Virus record (IMG/VR): IMGVR_UViG_3300049489_000477
Location: 1-64,000 of that record
Length of the DNA: 64,000 nt
DNA from: a virus
Direction: 5' to 3' (one strand)
The notes beneath the pieces were generated by a model. The model was not told where the DNA came from and made no database searches. It saw only the letters and a list, made by a program, of their open reading frames with translations. Both the position numbers and the translations under genes were made by a program. Positions 13,099-20,823 of this stretch are shown piece by piece (the first letter of the stretch is position 1; each line of letters starts with the position of its first letter).

Positions 13099-13653
13099 AT
13101 GAGTTTTTACAAACATATCATTCACGATAGTACCAATAATCAAGATCATGAGTTTACAGATACAAATGCAAATGTATCCAACGAAACTCTTTTGACATTT
13201 GGCAATATCGAAAACTTGACGGTTTCGAATGTTGATATAAGCGCCGAAGTAGCACTGGAAGTTAACGAAGCAAAGCGTAAACTACAAGATGAAGCACTTT
13301 CTGTTGCATGGGATTTCATAACTCCATACTTTGACCAACCAGCATTTATTCAGATGGCGGATTGGAAGCATTCATTAGCGTCTGATCATGTCATACAACC
13401 ATATATAGCAGCGGTTGAAGCATGGAAAGCCGCCATTATGTTTGAATACTTAATGGTTAAAAAACCATCATTGTGGAACGGTTTGCCGTATGATCTAGAT
13501 TACAGTTTTGTTGGCTCGCCACCTTGTAAATTCACTGATATATTTTTACTAGCTAATCCTCAATTCCAACCCTATGCTGTGGGTTGGTCGGCTCCTGATA
13601 TTACTAATTATGCGCCTGGCAGTCGCCAGAACCCAAAGCCGATATTATTTTAA
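13099..13653 (+). CDS. Hypothetical protein, possible fibre-assembly partner
   Basis: 184 residues, starting one base after the large fibre ends. The N-terminal third is polar (HDSTNNQDHEF), the centre is helical with EVNEAKRKLQDEALSVAWDF and IAAVEAWKAAIMFEYL, and the C-terminus is aromatic and proline-rich. A small helical protein directly after a fibre gene is a common position for a fibre chaperone, but I do not recognise a family and this is inference. Its 3' end overlaps the convergent clpS-like gene by four bases, marking the end of the plus-strand fibre block. Confidence 0.55.
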   Translation: MSFYKHIIHDSTNNQDHEFTDTNANVSNETLLTFGNIENLTVSNVDISAEVALEVNEAKRKLQDEALSVAWDFITPYFDQPAFIQMADWKHSLASDHVIQPYIAAVEAWKAAIMFEYLMVKKPSLWNGLPYDLDYSFVGSPPCKFTDIFLLANPQFQPYAVGWSAPDITNYAPGSRQNPKPILF

Positions 13654-13967
13654 TCGGCAGGCTCAATAGAACACGGCAGCGGTACCTTCGGACCCTTCGT
13701 AGCATCGGGATCACAACCATAACCCTTGACCAGATCCTTGAGCATTTCGGCTCGTTCCTTGTGGGTCGTAACCACGATGCACTGACCTTCAAAATGAATT
13801 TTCTTGGTCAGTTCGAATGCCTCATCAAAATTCTTATTAAAGACCACCATAATCAGCTTCACAACCCACTCGACGGTATGAAAATCGGTATTGTGCAGCA
13901 GAACATGCCACTGTGGCATGTGTTGAACCTTGTCCTTCTTCTCAACTTCGGGTAGCGATGTGGTCAT
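13650..13967 (-). CDS. clpS: ClpS-like ATP-dependent Clp protease adaptor
   Basis: 105 residues. ClpS binds N-degron substrates and delivers them to the ClpA or ClpC unfoldase. The core matches the family: PQWHVLLHNTDFHTVEWVV (residues about 18-36), then a helix ending in KKIHFEGQCIVV with the conserved His and Gly, then a helix with KERAEML and a terminal PLPCSIEPAD. The usual Asn-Asp-Asp pocket reads Asn-Thr-Asp here, so one acidic residue is replaced. The N-terminal extension is short and charged, as in bacterial ClpS. An AAGGA site precedes the ATG. Length fits the family (about 100). Inference: the phage redirects host N-degron proteolysis; the pocket change could alter specificity. Confidence 0.85.
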   Translation of the reverse strand: MTTSLPEVEKKDKVQHMPQWHVLLHNTDFHTVEWVVKLIMVVFNKNFDEAFELTKKIHFEGQCIVVTTHKERAEMLKDLVKGYGCDPDATKGPKVPLPCSIEPAD

Positions 13968-14020
13968 TTTCTTGTCCTTTCTGCCGTTACCTTATCTGAC
14001 TTTTAAAAGTATTCAATAAC

Positions 14021-14515
14021 CTAGACGGCGGCTTGAAGCGTAGTGTGTGATACACCAGAATCTACAATGTGGTTACCATGGGAATCCTCCCAATAGAACT
14101 GAACCCATGATGTTATATTATTATGGACATAGTAATCAGCTTGGATCTTTGACGTAGGCTTGACCAAGACCACAGCGGTTTTTACTGACCCTGCTTTCTT
14201 GAGTATGTGCATATTTTGTATATACGATATGGTATCACCACTATCTAAAAGATCATCACATATAAGAACCCGCTCTGACGCATTAAACACCTTACAGGCT
14301 GGGTATTCAATGTGGGGCTGCTCTTGCTTTATATCCCCTTTGTAGAAAGAAACTTTAATGGGGACCACAATGGCTCTCGGAAAGTATTTAATTAATTCCC
14401 GTGTCACATAACCACCCCCACGCTCCACGCTTAATATGTGGGTGAAGGGGTAATCGTTGACGCGATCTGCAAGGATCTTGCAATCCTTACAAAAAGCTTC
14501 AATAGTATATTGCAT
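14021..14515 (-). CDS. Purine-type phosphoribosyltransferase
   Basis: 164 residues. The PRPP-binding loop is clear: VLICDDLLDSGDTI (about 88-101), with the paired acids and the SGDT phosphate loop of type I phosphoribosyltransferases. An N-terminal ILSVERGGGYVTREL supplies the pyrophosphate loop, and the C-terminal WVQFYWED resembles the aromatic-Glu/Asp end of xanthine-guanine phosphoribosyltransferases. The likely reaction is transfer of ribose-5-phosphate from PRPP to guanine, xanthine or hypoxanthine; which base is not settled. The start overlaps the stop of the upstream 85-aa gene as TAATG, so the two are probably co-translated. Together with the GMP reductase at 39052 it could redirect guanine towards IMP. 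Confidence 0.75.
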   Translation of the reverse strand: MQYTIEAFCKDCKILADRVNDYPFTHILSVERGGGYVTRELIKYFPRAIVVPIKVSFYKGDIKQEQPHIEYPACKVFNASERVLICDDLLDSGDTISYIQNMHILKKAGSVKTAVVLVKPTSKIQADYYVHNNITSWVQFYWEDSHGNHIVDSGVSHTTLQAAV

Positions 14516-15114: not shown

Positions 15115-18102
15115 TTACGATGCACATGCACATGCGCTAAAATCTGTCGCAAATGCTGAACATGGAATTGGAGCTATCCAGCCTCTAAAATGTGGACTGA
15201 CCCACAATGAACAGTTTGCAACCGCTAATGGTCTGCCTGCTGATATGCCCGAGTTTAAAAGTCTATTAAAGGTATTAACGGCGTTCTTTCCATCGGCAAT
15301 CAACTCTTCGATACTCTTGCCCTTATCGCCACACAATGATGGAATAGTAATAGCGGGGAAAGGAATACCTATTTTTGGAAGCGTTGGTGAGCCAAAAGCA
15401 AGCCCACCCGTGAATGGAATATTTAATTTCGGAATATTCAAAATAAGCGAAGGTATCTTTATAAATGGCAACTCGATCTTCGGTAACTTCAAATCAATTG
15501 ATGGAATTGGTATATAGACATTCAATGTCAATGGAATTTTTAGACTGAAATTGATTGGAAAGGTCGGAAGACGAATATCGAGCTTTGGTAATGGATAGCC
15601 ACCAAACTTCATACGGAAATTTGGTAGTGCGATGTTAATAGGAGGAATAATCAGACCAGGCAATTTTGGTAAACTGATTTGTGGAATTGGTAAAGTGAAA
15701 GCAGCTTTTGGGAACTTTGGTAGAAGCTTTTCAAGTGCCTTCAATGATAACGGAACATTCAATTCTGGTAAACGAATGGTTGGTACGGTAATGGTTGGTG
15801 GGAATAGCGGAGGATCTGGAATACGAGGGAAATTGATTTTCGGAAACGGAACATTGATAGCGACTTTAAATCCAGTTGGTGCGACAATATCTGGAAACAC
15901 GATAGGTACTTTGAAATCAATATCGGGGAATGACAAGTCCAGCACAGGTATCTTCAAGTTCAATGGGAAACCAACACCAAACTCAAAGGCACCAGTAAAG
16001 TTAAATAGACCGTTGAATTCAAGACATGGAAGCGGTGGTAAACAACCTTGAAGCGACATAAGCGAATCAATGCCCATTTGCATGATGTTGTTCGCATATG
16101 CTTCCATTTCAGCAAGCATTTGTTCTTTTGACGGAATTATGGTTGCCAGTTGTTCCTTAATAAGCAGAAGATTCTGATATGTCTGCTGGATTGCGGCTTG
16201 TGATGATGCAAGAATAGCTCCTATATTTGACGATGGTATAAGAACGGACGGATCGCTTGCAAGAACTTCAAGGGAAGGATTCGTACCAACAAGTGTCGGA
16301 TCCATGCTGACGAAATTAAAATTACGGATATCGCTTCCCAATTCAGAAACTTCAAGAGCGAATTGTTCGACCTCTTGTTGGGGCAGCGTCAAACATTGCT
16401 GCTTCATCTGATTTAATATTGCGGTCAGTGGACTTGGATTTATAATATTACCAGATCCATCGCGTGGTGCTGACGAAAATTGTGTCATGAACTCTGTCCA
16501 TTCACCAAGCAACTCAGATGATGTGTCGGCTGAATAGTTCAAGTATGACTTGACGCTTGCCGTGACGCCCATGCTTCTATAGATTTTATCCAGTGTTGAT
16601 TGTCTGAACAATGTCATGCTATCGATAGGATTCATACCAGCCGCACCAGTAGCCAATCCCAGATTACCAACCCCGACATCAATCAAAGCTTGAGAAATCA
16701 AACCATTTTTTTCCGCCGTTCCATTGATGGATTGTAATAGGTCTTTAATGGAATTTTTCACATCATTTTGAAATTGTACGATATCACTACAGCCTTCATT
16801 GATTCTTGGTTCTGGGCATATGACGGTACTGCTTGGAGGTGGTGGTATAAGAAGGTTTAATGCATTTTCTCTGGCGTTCATCAAATCACCAAAGAAATGC
16901 TGCATGTCGGGATCAGATCGTATGTAATCGGCTAGTGCATCTACGGGATTACTTAAAACATAATCAAGCTTATCTCTCACACTCTTGACTTTATCAACAA
17001 TGTCTTTTAAATTGTTTGAATTTTTTCTATAATTGTCTCTTAGTCCTAGAATGGAGTCAGCGGCATCCAAGGCAAGGTTTATAGCTTCTGCTGAATTCGA
17101 AGGAAATTCATTAGGTAAGCCAGCACGCAATTCGCGGGCATAGTCTTTCATCTTTCCATCGAAGTAATTCTTTATGTCTGTTGTCTGTGAAATCAATTCA
17201 ACATCATGTTTGGAAAGATACCCTGAGACTTTATCCGCAAATGACATATTGAGTGATGATTCCATACGAGAACTCAAATACTTCATATGTTCTGAAACAC
17301 ATGGAGCATTTGCGTTTATCGGGGTGGATAATACATCATTGGCAGTTGAACATATATCGTTATTTGACTTACCAAATAGATTGGCTTCGAATCTAATATC
17401 AACAGGGGCATTACCACACAGACCCTTCTTCAACTTCTCATTCAGCTTGGTCAGGTGATCAATACCAACCTTCTTCAATGCGCCTTCAAGATTGAAGTCA
17501 TCGACCGACTTCAATCCAAAGTTTTCTACGGGGTTGTTGCAGCTTCCTAAAATATCCCGCAATATTTCTGGAAGACAGTTAGCCAGGTCACCAGAGGCAA
17601 GACATGGATCGATCTTCTCAAGAATAATAGGATTTAAAACAAGCGGATCGTATAGCGGTATGGCTGGCTTTCCAGCACAACCACCAGCCAATCCACCACC
17701 AGCATATGGTAAACCGCTTCCAATGGCATTGTTTCGTACATCCATGCAACCAGATGTAATAACACCTAATTCGGCAACTACGGTTATACCGACAATACCC
17801 ACTACGAATACTAGATCACCGACTCTTGCGAGTGGCTTATAGTCGCAGAAAGACATGAAATCTGATGTGAGAACATGCCCATACAATACATTGACACCAA
17901 AAATTGGATCGAATATCTTTGCTGGTACTTTTAGACCAGACGGTGGTTTTGGAGTCGTTGATGCCCCGACCAATGTATCATGTAATTTATTTTCAAGACC
18001 GTTAACGCCATCTTGCATCGACTTCAACGAGTCCATAGCCGCCTGCATGTTTTCAGTCGGTGATAGTGATTGGTTAAGATTTAATAAATCAACAGTAGCC
18101 AT
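15115..18102 (-). CDS. Large virion-type protein with proline-rich beta repeat domain
   Basis: 995 residues. The N-terminus is helical (about 1-45); residues about 58-130 contain FMSFCDYKPLARVGDLVFV, then GVITSGCMDVRNNAIGSG, loosely like a PAAR spike domain (weak). Residues 180-650 are mostly helical with cysteines. Residues about 690-920 are a striking repeat in which proline recurs every few residues between aliphatic ones (IPQISLPKLPGL, PLPKLDIRLPTFP, LKLPKIELPFIKIP). Such regular P-x-aliphatic patterning would fit an extended or beta-helical fibre. No membrane helix or signal peptide is evident. It could be a tail-tip, fibre or spike protein; the family is not recognised. Confidence 0.6.
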   Translation of the reverse strand: MATVDLLNLNQSLSPTENMQAAMDSLKSMQDGVNGLENKLHDTLVGASTTPKPPSGLKVPAKIFDPIFGVNVLYGHVLTSDFMSFCDYKPLARVGDLVFVVGIVGITVVAELGVITSGCMDVRNNAIGSGLPYAGGGLAGGCAGKPAIPLYDPLVLNPIILEKIDPCLASGDLANCLPEILRDILGSCNNPVENFGLKSVDDFNLEGALKKVGIDHLTKLNEKLKKGLCGNAPVDIRFEANLFGKSNNDICSTANDVLSTPINANAPCVSEHMKYLSSRMESSLNMSFADKVSGYLSKHDVELISQTTDIKNYFDGKMKDYARELRAGLPNEFPSNSAEAINLALDAADSILGLRDNYRKNSNNLKDIVDKVKSVRDKLDYVLSNPVDALADYIRSDPDMQHFFGDLMNARENALNLLIPPPPSSTVICPEPRINEGCSDIVQFQNDVKNSIKDLLQSINGTAEKNGLISQALIDVGVGNLGLATGAAGMNPIDSMTLFRQSTLDKIYRSMGVTASVKSYLNYSADTSSELLGEWTEFMTQFSSAPRDGSGNIINPSPLTAILNQMKQQCLTLPQQEVEQFALEVSELGSDIRNFNFVSMDPTLVGTNPSLEVLASDPSVLIPSSNIGAILASSQAAIQQTYQNLLLIKEQLATIIPSKEQMLAEMEAYANNIMQMGIDSLMSLQGCLPPLPCLEFNGLFNFTGAFEFGVGFPLNLKIPVLDLSFPDIDFKVPIVFPDIVAPTGFKVAINVPFPKINFPRIPDPPLFPPTITVPTIRLPELNVPLSLKALEKLLPKFPKAAFTLPIPQISLPKLPGLIIPPINIALPNFRMKFGGYPLPKLDIRLPTFPINFSLKIPLTLNVYIPIPSIDLKLPKIELPFIKIPSLILNIPKLNIPFTGGLAFGSPTLPKIGIPFPAITIPSLCGDKGKSIEELIADGKNAVNTFNRLLNSGISAGRPLAVANCSLWVSPHFRGWIAPIPCSAFATDFSACACAS
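15335..16040 (-). repeat. Proline-aliphatic repeat region of the 995-aa protein
   Basis: About 230 residues dominated by degenerate units such as LPKIxLPxIxIP. The DNA repeat is too diverged for exact unit boundaries. The complementary strand reads as a spurious Gly/Asn-rich frame (15632-16051), which is a by-product of this composition. Confidence 0.75.
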
Positions 18103-18649: not shown

Positions 18650-19465
18650 TTATTTGAAGGGAATAATATAGTTATTCTTATTTATCCATTCTTGTGCATG
18701 TAACATGCTAGGAATTGTACCTAAATCGTGCCAGAAGCCCTTAAGAATGGTTGATGTCATCTTGTTATTCTGGACATACCAGTTATTCAAGTCCGATACT
18801 TCCAGTTCGCCTCGACCAGAAACAGTAAGTTTCGGAAGAAGATTAAACACATGTCCCGTAAAGAAGTATAAACCGGTTACGGCGTAATTGCTTTCTGGAT
18901 TCTTTGGTTTCTCAACAATCTTCGTTACTTTATCCCCGTCAATGGTCGCAACGCCAAATCGCTCAGGATCATGTACTTCCTTGAGAAAAACATGGGCTAT
19001 ATGTGTTGTATCGATACCATCTGATCTAAAAGAATTTGACCATACATAGTCACAGAACTTAGCAAATTCATCCTCGAAATTATTTTCATAGAAGTTATCA
19101 CCAAGTATAACCATAAACGGATCTATGGGGCTTACAACTCCCTCAATAAGTTTCATGGCGCTGGCAATGCCTACTGGTCTTGCTGGATCATTGTGATCTT
19201 GGACTTTATAGCAGATATCGACGCCGAAACGCCTACCATCACCAAGGAACTCCATGATGTCACCACAATGTTCCTGGGAAGAAACGATGATGATCCTATC
19301 GCAGCCACTTGCAACAAGAGTGTGAAGCGGATACCAGATCATGGGGATAGCCCCCTGTGGACCATATACAGGAAGTAGATGTTTATTCTGAATTTCTGTT
19401 TGTGGTGCAAGTCTTGTACCCCGTCCACCACTCAATATTACGCCGGTCTTTGGTTGCATACGCAT
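18650..19465 (-). CDS. rmlA: Glucose-1-phosphate thymidylyltransferase (RmlA-type)
   Basis: 271 residues from the ATG at 19465, chosen because GGAG lies eight bases upstream; a longer frame to 19498 has no such site. The enzyme would make dTDP-glucose from dTTP and glucose-1-phosphate. The nucleotidyltransferase signature is intact: GVILSGGRGTRLAPQT with NKHLLPVYG, then MVILGDNFYE for the metal-binding Asp, VEKPKNP, and TGLYFF. Length is slightly shorter than the usual 290. It heads a unit with its own extended -10 promoter just after a terminator, downstream of the galactofuranose genes. No rmlB, C or D is visible, so the product must feed host enzymes or phage enzymes encoded elsewhere. A related uridylyl- or other sugar-1-phosphate nucleotidyltransferase cannot be excluded. 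Confidence 0.85.
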   Translation of the reverse strand: MRMQPKTGVILSGGRGTRLAPQTEIQNKHLLPVYGPQGAIPMIWYPLHTLVASGCDRIIIVSSQEHCGDIMEFLGDGRRFGVDICYKVQDHNDPARPVGIASAMKLIEGVVSPIDPFMVILGDNFYENNFEDEFAKFCDYVWSNSFRSDGIDTTHIAHVFLKEVHDPERFGVATIDGDKVTKIVEKPKNPESNYAVTGLYFFTGHVFNLLPKLTVSGRGELEVSDLNNWYVQNNKMTSTILKGFWHDLGTIPSMLHAQEWINKNNYIIPFK

Positions 19466-19481
19466 AACAATCTCCACATAA

Positions 19482-19511
19482 ATTATAGCATATATCAAAG
19501 AAAAACGCCAA
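19482..19511 (-). promoter_or_regulatory. Sigma70-type extended -10 promoter of rmlA
   Basis: On the minus strand TTGGCG and TATAAT are separated by 18 bases, and TG-C precedes the TATAAT. The -35 element is built into the stem of the overlapping terminator. Expected transcripts begin about ten bases before the GGAG site of rmlA. Confidence 0.55.
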
Positions 19512-19530
19512 GCTTTTGGCTTGGCGTTTT
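19501..19530 (-). terminator. Intrinsic terminator after the 67-aa gene
   Basis: A 12-bp perfect stem (AAAACGCCAAGC with GCTTGGCGTTTT) with a five-base loop. Minus-strand transcripts would end in TTTTTCTTT. It also carries a T run on the plus strand, but no plus gene lies upstream. Confidence 0.85.
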
Positions 19531-19552
19531 CTGCATTATATAAAAATTAAGC

Positions 19553-19756
19553 TTATATCATTTCTTTGAGCTTGGAACGATATTGAATCATCCAAGGAAC
19601 CTCATTCGCATTATCCATGCGACCCAATTCCATGTCTATAAGTTGCTTGGCATTAGCTATCATGACGCGACCCGATTGCTTTGGAAACCGCTTACGGACT
19701 TCCTTTTCAAGCGTAACGACATCATCGTAAAGCTTATCTTTATCTGCTACTTTCAT
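19553..19756 (-). CDS. Small hypothetical protein
   Basis: 67 residues from the ATG at 19756, chosen for the near-perfect AGGAGGA site five bases upstream; the frame extends to 19807 without such a site. The protein is charged and helical (KDKLYDDVVTLEKEVRKRF, then GRVMIANAKQLIDMEL). It is the last gene of the galactofuranose unit before the terminator. Family not recognised. Confidence 0.6.
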   Translation of the reverse strand: MKVADKDKLYDDVVTLEKEVRKRFPKQSGRVMIANAKQLIDMELGRMDNANEVPWMIQYRSKLKEMI

Positions 19757-19815
19757 ATATTCCTCCTGGTTAGCATGGTTATTATACTCTTGATTTTTAA
19801 AAATCAAGAAAATCT

Positions 19816-20823
19816 CTAAAAGCTTTCTTTTACAAGTGTTATGGCATTTTTTACAGCTATGTCCATATCAATATATGCATTCGTGCCAAGCCGTCCAGCT
19901 AAAATCATATTCGGAAATTCCTTTTTTACCATGTCCCTAATTCTTAAATAGGTATCTGTATTATCATTGGTTGGAATTGGATAAAATGGTGTCTTGTCTG
20001 GAACCATTGCAGCTTTGGGTGTTTCATAAGTAACTATTTTTGAATACGATTTATAGACATGTCCAAAATAGGATTTGCGGGTATATGGTGTTTTTAAATG
20101 ACAGAAGTTTACAACGGTTGCTGGTGAGTCCCATGGTTCATGCTTGAATGTAAAATCCAAGTTTCGATATTGCAGCCAATCGCCACGCATCGCCCCAAGC
20201 TTCAAATTACCTATCTGTATGTGATCTGGACGCCCGCAGTATATGATCTTTTTTGCTGGTATGCCTTGCCAGTAATTGCAATCGACTCCTAGCATGATAT
20301 CGACGCCTTGAAGCATCTTATTCATCATTTTGGTATAGCCACGCTTTGGTAATGCTGTAAATTGCCCTTCAAAATAGTTAGATACTTCTTTTGTATCTTT
20401 AGGAATTCGTCGTGTTATTGCTGATGGTAATTCGTCCCATGTCGTGCCCCACATCTTTTGAGAGTATGGTTTGAAAAATGTATCAATAACTTGAGTCTCG
20501 TTGAGTGTCTTACCCAATGCCGCTGCTGTTTCCTTTGAATATGGGAACGGAACACGAATGCCTGGTTCTATCTCGGCTTCTACAGTATGTTGGTATGGAA
20601 TCCATTCGGTGTAATTGGAAAGAAGATCGACTACATCGGGAAACTTCGAGTGAAAAATATGCGGACCATATCGGTGAATATAACCACCATTGCTGGAGTA
20701 ATCATAACAATTGCCGCCTATGTGATCACGAATATCAACGACAAGTATCTTATACTTGTGCTTACATAAAGCACAGATTGTCGCTGCGGTGATTCCAGAG
20801 CCAATAATGAGAATGTCCAACAT
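19816..20823 (-). CDS. glf: UDP-galactopyranose mutase
   Basis: 335 residues. Glf interconverts UDP-galactopyranose and UDP-galactofuranose using reduced FAD. The FAD fold is seen at the start (LDILIIGSGITAATI, then ILVVDIRDHIGGNCYD), followed by the family hallmark YGPHIFHS (about 52-59), FNxPY-like FKPYSQKMWGTTWDEL, PKRGYTKMM, and the C-terminal FAD contact LAGRLGTNAYIDMDIAV. Length is a little under the bacterial 360-390. AGGA precedes the ATG, which begins directly after the stop of the neighbouring glycosyltransferase-like gene. It implies that galactofuranose is added to a glycan or virion protein during infection. Confidence 0.9.
   Translation of the reverse strand: MLDILIIGSGITAATICALCKHKYKILVVDIRDHIGGNCYDYSSNGGYIHRYGPHIFHSKFPDVVDLLSNYTEWIPYQHTVEAEIEPGIRVPFPYSKETAAALGKTLNETQVIDTFFKPYSQKMWGTTWDELPSAITRRIPKDTKEVSNYFEGQFTALPKRGYTKMMNKMLQGVDIMLGVDCNYWQGIPAKKIIYCGRPDHIQIGNLKLGAMRGDWLQYRNLDFTFKHEPWDSPATVVNFCHLKTPYTRKSYFGHVYKSYSKIVTYETPKAAMVPDKTPFYPIPTNDNTDTYLRIRDMVKKEFPNMILAGRLGTNAYIDMDIAVKNAITLVKESF

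Follow-up and report, generated by a model that had tools for sequence, protein, structure and literature searches.

A T4-like phage ClpS with threonine at the near-invariant aspartate site of the family

Introduction

ClpS is a bacterial protein that passes selected proteins to a protein-shredding machine. In Caulobacter ClpS, Asn47, Asp49 and His79 hold the alpha-amino group of the degron and Asp48 is listed among the specificity-pocket residues, and in E. coli ClpS E79 and E82 contact ClpA, according to the parts of PMC12493166 used here. The aspartate equivalent to Asp48 is called universally conserved in the relevant section of PMC6274998, where molecular dynamics made it the main ClpC1 contact, with almost 42% of the energy of ClpC1-ClpS binding, and where this contact is described as absent from ClpA-ClpS structures. 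Tandem prolines keep E. coli ClpS from degradation, as stated in the portion of PMC9663308 that deals with them.

Phage ClpS as such is already published. The ClpS proteins of jumbo phages are regarded as likely adaptors for host ClpAP in the pertinent parts of PMC7824862 and PMC6102473, and in the former the jumbo-phage authors proposed delivery by phage ClpS to host ClpAP. We found no paper on the D35 site in phage ClpS in the open-access literature. Here we describe a ClpS of a T4-like phage in which this site is changed; sites are numbered as in E. coli ClpS, and residues of the phage protein by their own position.

Results

The clpS gene and its surroundings

The window analyzed here covers positions 1 to 64,000 of a virus record of 116,506 bases. 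Seven of the ten larger record proteins tested match PHROG families, including terminase large subunit (which also has a Pfam match), major head protein, tail sheath, DNA polymerase, an SbcC-like nuclease subunit and thymidylate synthase; the record is a T4-like myophage of 116.5 kb. On the minus strand, an ORF at 13650-13967 runs from ATG to stop without an internal stop, encodes 105 aa, and is the last gene of a minus-strand run. The first-pass annotation had called it a phage-encoded ClpS, and this identification holds. The product matches Pfam PF02617 (ClpS) at E 1.2e-16 and 60.7 bits against a cut-off of 23, and was the sole ClpS match in the whole record. The NCBIfam ClpS equivalogs gave a best score of 40.5 bits, below their cut-off of 117. 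As the Pfam family does not formally require an aspartate at site 35, its absence leaves membership intact, and the product is a genuine ClpS.

The predicted model (pLDDT 83.6) adopts the ClpS fold. All 38 Foldseek matches at E ≤ 0.001 were ClpS, either bacterial, plant, or a malarial ClpS fusion, and VIA-align superposed the model on E. coli ClpS (PDB 2wa8; Z 15.0, 93 residues, rmsd 3.7) and on peptide-bound Caulobacter ClpS (PDB 3dnj; Z 14.8, 80 residues, rmsd 1.5). An N-terminal extension of ~18 residues (13914-13967, minus strand) is modeled with low confidence, like that of other ClpS. A chance ORF is ruled out by the intact reading frame, the Pfam ClpS score and the Foldseek fold matches.

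A plus-strand gene (13099-13653) converges with clpS and overlaps it by 4 bases. Ahead of clpS, the sequence contains a Shine-Dalgarno-like AAGGA (13975-13979, minus strand) resembling a ribosome-binding site, and the next gene upstream (14021-14515, minus strand) encodes a phosphoribosyltransferase domain by Pfam. Promoter scanning returned 6 sites (4.2 expected by chance) and terminator scanning 1 (1.4 expected). The GC3 of clpS (0.547) is the highest among the 124 called ORFs (mean 0.365), consistent with a donor of higher GC or with strong expression. Further along the minus strand lie a gene for a 995-aa protein outside any Pfam family (15115-18102) and, at 18650-20823, genes which we take to resemble those for glucose-1-phosphate thymidylyltransferase and UDP-galactopyranose mutase.

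Threonine at the most constrained site

As the first-pass annotation had noted, the Asn-Asp-Asp motif reads Asn-Thr-Asp in the phage protein: N26-T27-D28, encoded on the minus strand by AAT (13890-13892), ACC (13887-13889) and GAT (13884-13886). Asn26 and Asp28 are the kept equivalents of N34 and D36, and Thr27, the changed residue, takes the place of E. coli D35 and Caulobacter D48. For comparison we used a cellular sample drawn with the Pfam model from genomes of Planctomycetota, Verrucomicrobiota, Actinomycetota and Bacteroidota, which also takes in 23 named genome hits from a pattern search and represents Pseudomonadota by E. coli only, itself with D35. Merging of identical rows reduced 162 rows to 155 distinct sequences; two loci (G070:C78 and G078:C41) and 12 matches listed without a locus were left out of the D35 count. 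The D35 column holds D in 154 of 155 sequences, N in one and T in none. Its neighbors in the motif vary more, with N in 116 and D in 39 at site 34 and D in 90 and P in 41 at site 36, and H66 is kept in 125; the D35 site is the most constrained ClpS site in the cellular sample (n=155). At least 70% cellular agreement was found in 14 columns, and the consensus is departed from, in one or both of the phages carrying this ClpS (see below), at four of them: the D35 site (99.4% agreement) and three columns of 71-80% agreement with the conservative changes L to I, V to I and V to L. Furthermore, in one Planctomycetota class (that of genome G092) 15 of 17 genomes had a ClpS match, with D in all 15 aligned rows, although 4 of the class genomes were already in the first cellular sample.

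A sequencing error is unlikely, because Asp to Thr takes two base changes and Thr is also present in a separately assembled relative (G003). We reject N-T-D as a trivial variant of N-D-D, given that 0 of 155 cellular ClpS have T. The phage motif, with an acid at site 36 only, appears to mirror the cellular N-D-P motif, which has an acid at site 35 only.

The claim of the first-pass annotation that the binding pocket is altered stands in part. The equivalent of the changed residue, Asp48, belongs to the listed specificity-pocket residues in the part of PMC12493166 cited above, while the equivalents of the triad that holds the alpha-amino group (N26, D28 and H58) are all present. Because Asp48 lies in the specificity pocket and its equivalent is a modeled ClpC1 contact, its replacement by T may act on the choice of cargo, on docking, or on both.

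Other pocket and docking sites

His58 (13794-13796, minus strand) is the kept equivalent of H66, and the equivalents of N34, D36, H66, V43, G69, E79 and E82 are kept both in the window ClpS and in the G003 ClpS. The last two of these sites are spanned by Glu71 to Glu74 (13746-13757, minus strand). The gate position (E. coli M40) holds Val32 in the window ClpS (13872-13874, minus strand) and Phe in G003, the pocket site M62 is T, as in 25 of 155 cellular ClpS, and the K84 equivalent is L. Thus the fold, the triad equivalents and the ClpA-contacting glutamates are as in the E. coli and Caulobacter proteins (2wa8, 3dnj), whereas overall identity to these is ~26% and the phage protein differs at T27, at the gate and at K84, and lacks the tandem prolines. 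Of 18 NDDDH-type relatives read by eye (L013-L029 and L032), 16 have such prolines; over the whole cellular set a crude pattern counted 36 of 154, too crude to inform.

A relative with the same substitution

Related IMG/VR contigs were found by scans with the terminase and the major head protein. Among them, G003 (59 kb) is the one relative found with a record that extends into the ClpS region, and it carries a ClpS that is 52% identical to the window ClpS over 98 residues, with Thr at the D35 site in both. The two records have a common gene order, which runs from a sugar-nucleotide transferase-like gene through a 159- or 172-aa protein, the 995- or 991-aa protein (61% identical), a small gene and the phosphoribosyltransferase to clpS, followed by the convergent genes. 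Since Thr is also found in the G003 ClpS, the substitution is inherited, and the two phages point to its retention. A decaying pseudogene is ruled out, as the ORF is intact, 52% conserved with G003, and retains its core.

A ClpS match was absent from two of the three terminase relatives and from all 16 further records, most of which are short fragments. The 16 include two large records (141 and 163 kb) with a terminase 33% identical, and therefore distant relatives may be without ClpS. Scanning viral records with only the window ClpS, or with the phosphoribosyltransferase, gave no relative; scans with the 995-aa neighbor and with the ClpS pair gave none beyond G003, and a plasmid search gave no match.

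Cellular relatives

In the pattern search 17 of 23 genome hits bear planctomycete titles, a share that is biased because the patterns (T or D allowed) favor this ClpS type. The NDDDH-type ClpS of Planctomycetota (L013 and others) belong to the same family and are 30-42% identical to the G003 ClpS, and the closest eleven from the G092 class (L233-L243), a class arrived at through the Planctomycetota sampling, are 37-45% identical to it. Planctomycetota and phage ClpS have stretches such as ERAEL and a C-terminal IEPA/LEPA in common; in contrast, the Planctomycetota proteins all have D where both phages have T, and most of the NDDDH type have tandem prolines before the core, which the window ClpS lacks. 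In each of two trees the phage pair stays together (98; 100/99) and lies close to Planctomycetota sequences, but its sister group differs between them. One of them was built without 7 long-branch rows, 4 rows duplicated by the class search and roughly half of those that remained; in the other, Bacteroidota and Actinomycetota were thinned. By these sequence comparisons, the nearest cellular ClpS found are those of Planctomycetota. Several Planctomycetota genomes carry two or three ClpS genes, which in a few (e.g. G057, G096) are clustered on one contig.

ClpS in other phages

Six ClpS queries in tblastn searches of 50,697 phage-collection records matched 3, 43, 21, 23, 3 and 16 records in overlapping sets, in agreement with the earlier statement that phages carrying ClpS are uncommon. 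We left CAKLQF out of the phage ClpS count, since its clpS is followed by clpA, the arrangement seen on chromosomes. The ClpS of jumbo phages (RaK2-like phages such as GAP32 and CBB; PA5oct; Atu_ph07; Phosso) are phage-encoded, like the window ClpS, but are different ClpS, the RaK2-like ones being mostly ~170-180 aa long compared with 105 aa in the window. PHROG 27368 and 15940, both annotated as ATP-dependent protease, are distant from the window protein and match it weakly (31.1 and 29.0 bits), whereas the general Pfam ClpS model reaches the score given above.

Outside the window lineage, all nine non-RaK2 phage ClpS that we read have D35. In the nine RaK2-like ClpS the site holds D in five, N in two, S in one and T in one (GAP32), so that D35 is replaced in four of nine. 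In GAP32, T35 comes together with the loss of D36 and H66, whereas the window ClpS keeps both equivalents. As a group, the RaK2-like ClpS (L005, L169-L176) are degenerate at sites 34, 35, 36 and 66. In Sinorhizobium phage Phosso and Agrobacterium phage Atu_ph07 (L179, L180), clpS adjoins a thymidine kinase gene; this neighbor and the phosphoribosyltransferase neighbor in the window may both be nucleotide-salvage genes.

Nine other viral contigs from IMG/VR, 31-203 kb in length (L208-L216; match from 5001 in each), carry a Planctomycetota-type ClpS with NDD intact, and since the search pattern included NDD, their D35 is uninformative on frequency. In the stretches read, the ClpS gene lies away from clpA in all nine; the C-terminal domain of Clp unfoldases is matched in four contigs, and ClpP in one. 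None of the nine matches Terminase_6N, and their phage nature is putative; G248 has phage-like replication genes. A YPxGYxGxGxYP-like protein is encoded near clpS in three of these large contigs (L210:9539-9994, minus strand; L213:8957-9373, plus strand; L214:5917-6354, plus strand), which hints at kinship.

Discussion

The changed aspartate suggests that the virus redirects or blocks host protein disposal via ClpS. Our preferred reading, which we hold at about even confidence, is that of a working adaptor, probably of Planctomycetota-type origin, that docks on host ClpA or ClpC and has an altered choice of cargo. A T4-like phage would have taken the adaptor up from a bacterium of Planctomycetota type and retained it. 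The protein would dock on the N-domain of host ClpA or ClpC, its flexible N-terminal extension would enter the pore, and proteins with bulky N-terminal residues would be delivered to ClpP. Replacement of D35 by T, along with the other pocket changes, would shift which cargo is preferred. As an effect, host proteolysis would be redirected in infection and a chosen set of proteins cleared, and the phage ClpS would also keep the protease off ssrA-tagged substrates, as cellular ClpS does. We infer the expression, host, docking, cargo and effect of the phage protein.

Searches of the phage record, which may be incomplete, matched neither the ClpP family nor ClpB_D2-small, the C-terminal domain of Clp unfoldases, and a working phage ClpS would therefore need host partners. 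This need, together with the kept E79 and E82 equivalents and the flexible N-terminal extension, is why we favor the adaptor. We also counted for it the ClpS family and fold, the kept triad, V43 and G69, the conservation of ClpS and gene order between the two phages, the cellular-type donor (Planctomycetota), and the proposal in PMC7824862 that phage ClpS delivers to host ClpAP. Counted against it were the loss of the most constrained residue, so that cargo binding may be impaired, the absent tandem prolines, the lost K84 equivalent, and a gate residue that is V in one phage and F in the other.

The loss of the near-invariant D35, which has also gone from the four RaK2-like jumbo-phage proteins, is also what might be seen in a decoy or inhibitor that docks on ClpA or ClpC, competes with host ClpS, binds little or no cargo, and would block both ssrA-type and N-degron degradation. 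Such a cargo-poor decoy is the main rival to the adaptor, and we consider it somewhat unlikely. The kept ClpA-contacting glutamates agree with it, and so does the divergent Leptospira ClpS1, which still binds ClpA and suppresses ssrA degradation according to the part of PMC12493166 that describes it. However, a pure plug would not need the triad equivalents and the aromatic or hydrophobic pocket that are kept here, and if D35 contacts ClpC as modeled in the cited section of PMC6274998, docking itself would be weakened.

The same family, fold, triad and overall pattern could also belong to an ordinary host-like adaptor, in which N-T-D works as well as N-D-D and the phage gene adds only ClpS dosage. 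Many cellular ClpS have a single acid in the motif (N-D-P, with P at site 36 in 41 of 155), but all of these keep it at site 35, where none of the 155 has T, and we regard this explanation as improbable. It is highly doubtful, moreover, that the protein is a repurposed ClpS fold that is no longer Clp-linked and serves, for example, a phage or ribosome-linked role. The fold does recur in ribosomal L7/L12 (VIA-align Z up to 9.0), and clpS sits beside the phosphoribosyltransferase and structural genes rather than Clp genes; yet both sequence and fold place the protein much nearer to ClpS (Z about 14 to 15), and the triad and the ClpA-contact glutamates are kept.

Taking the phages together, we tentatively raise the possibility that two groups, the T4-like phages with a Planctomycetota-type ClpS and the RaK2-like jumbo phages, each lost the aspartate because they turn ClpS against the host. 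It would serve them either as an adaptor with switched specificity or as a cargo-poor ClpA/ClpC plug suppressing the N-degron and ssrA turnover of the host in infection.

Planctomycetota are the likely hosts of this T4-like lineage, as judged from one gene. If the preferred adaptor reading is true, the phage would be a clean case of steering the bacterial N-degron pathway by adaptor supply alone. The window ClpS would then be a natural variant at a position that evolution otherwise leaves alone, and can reveal the role of that residue in ClpS.
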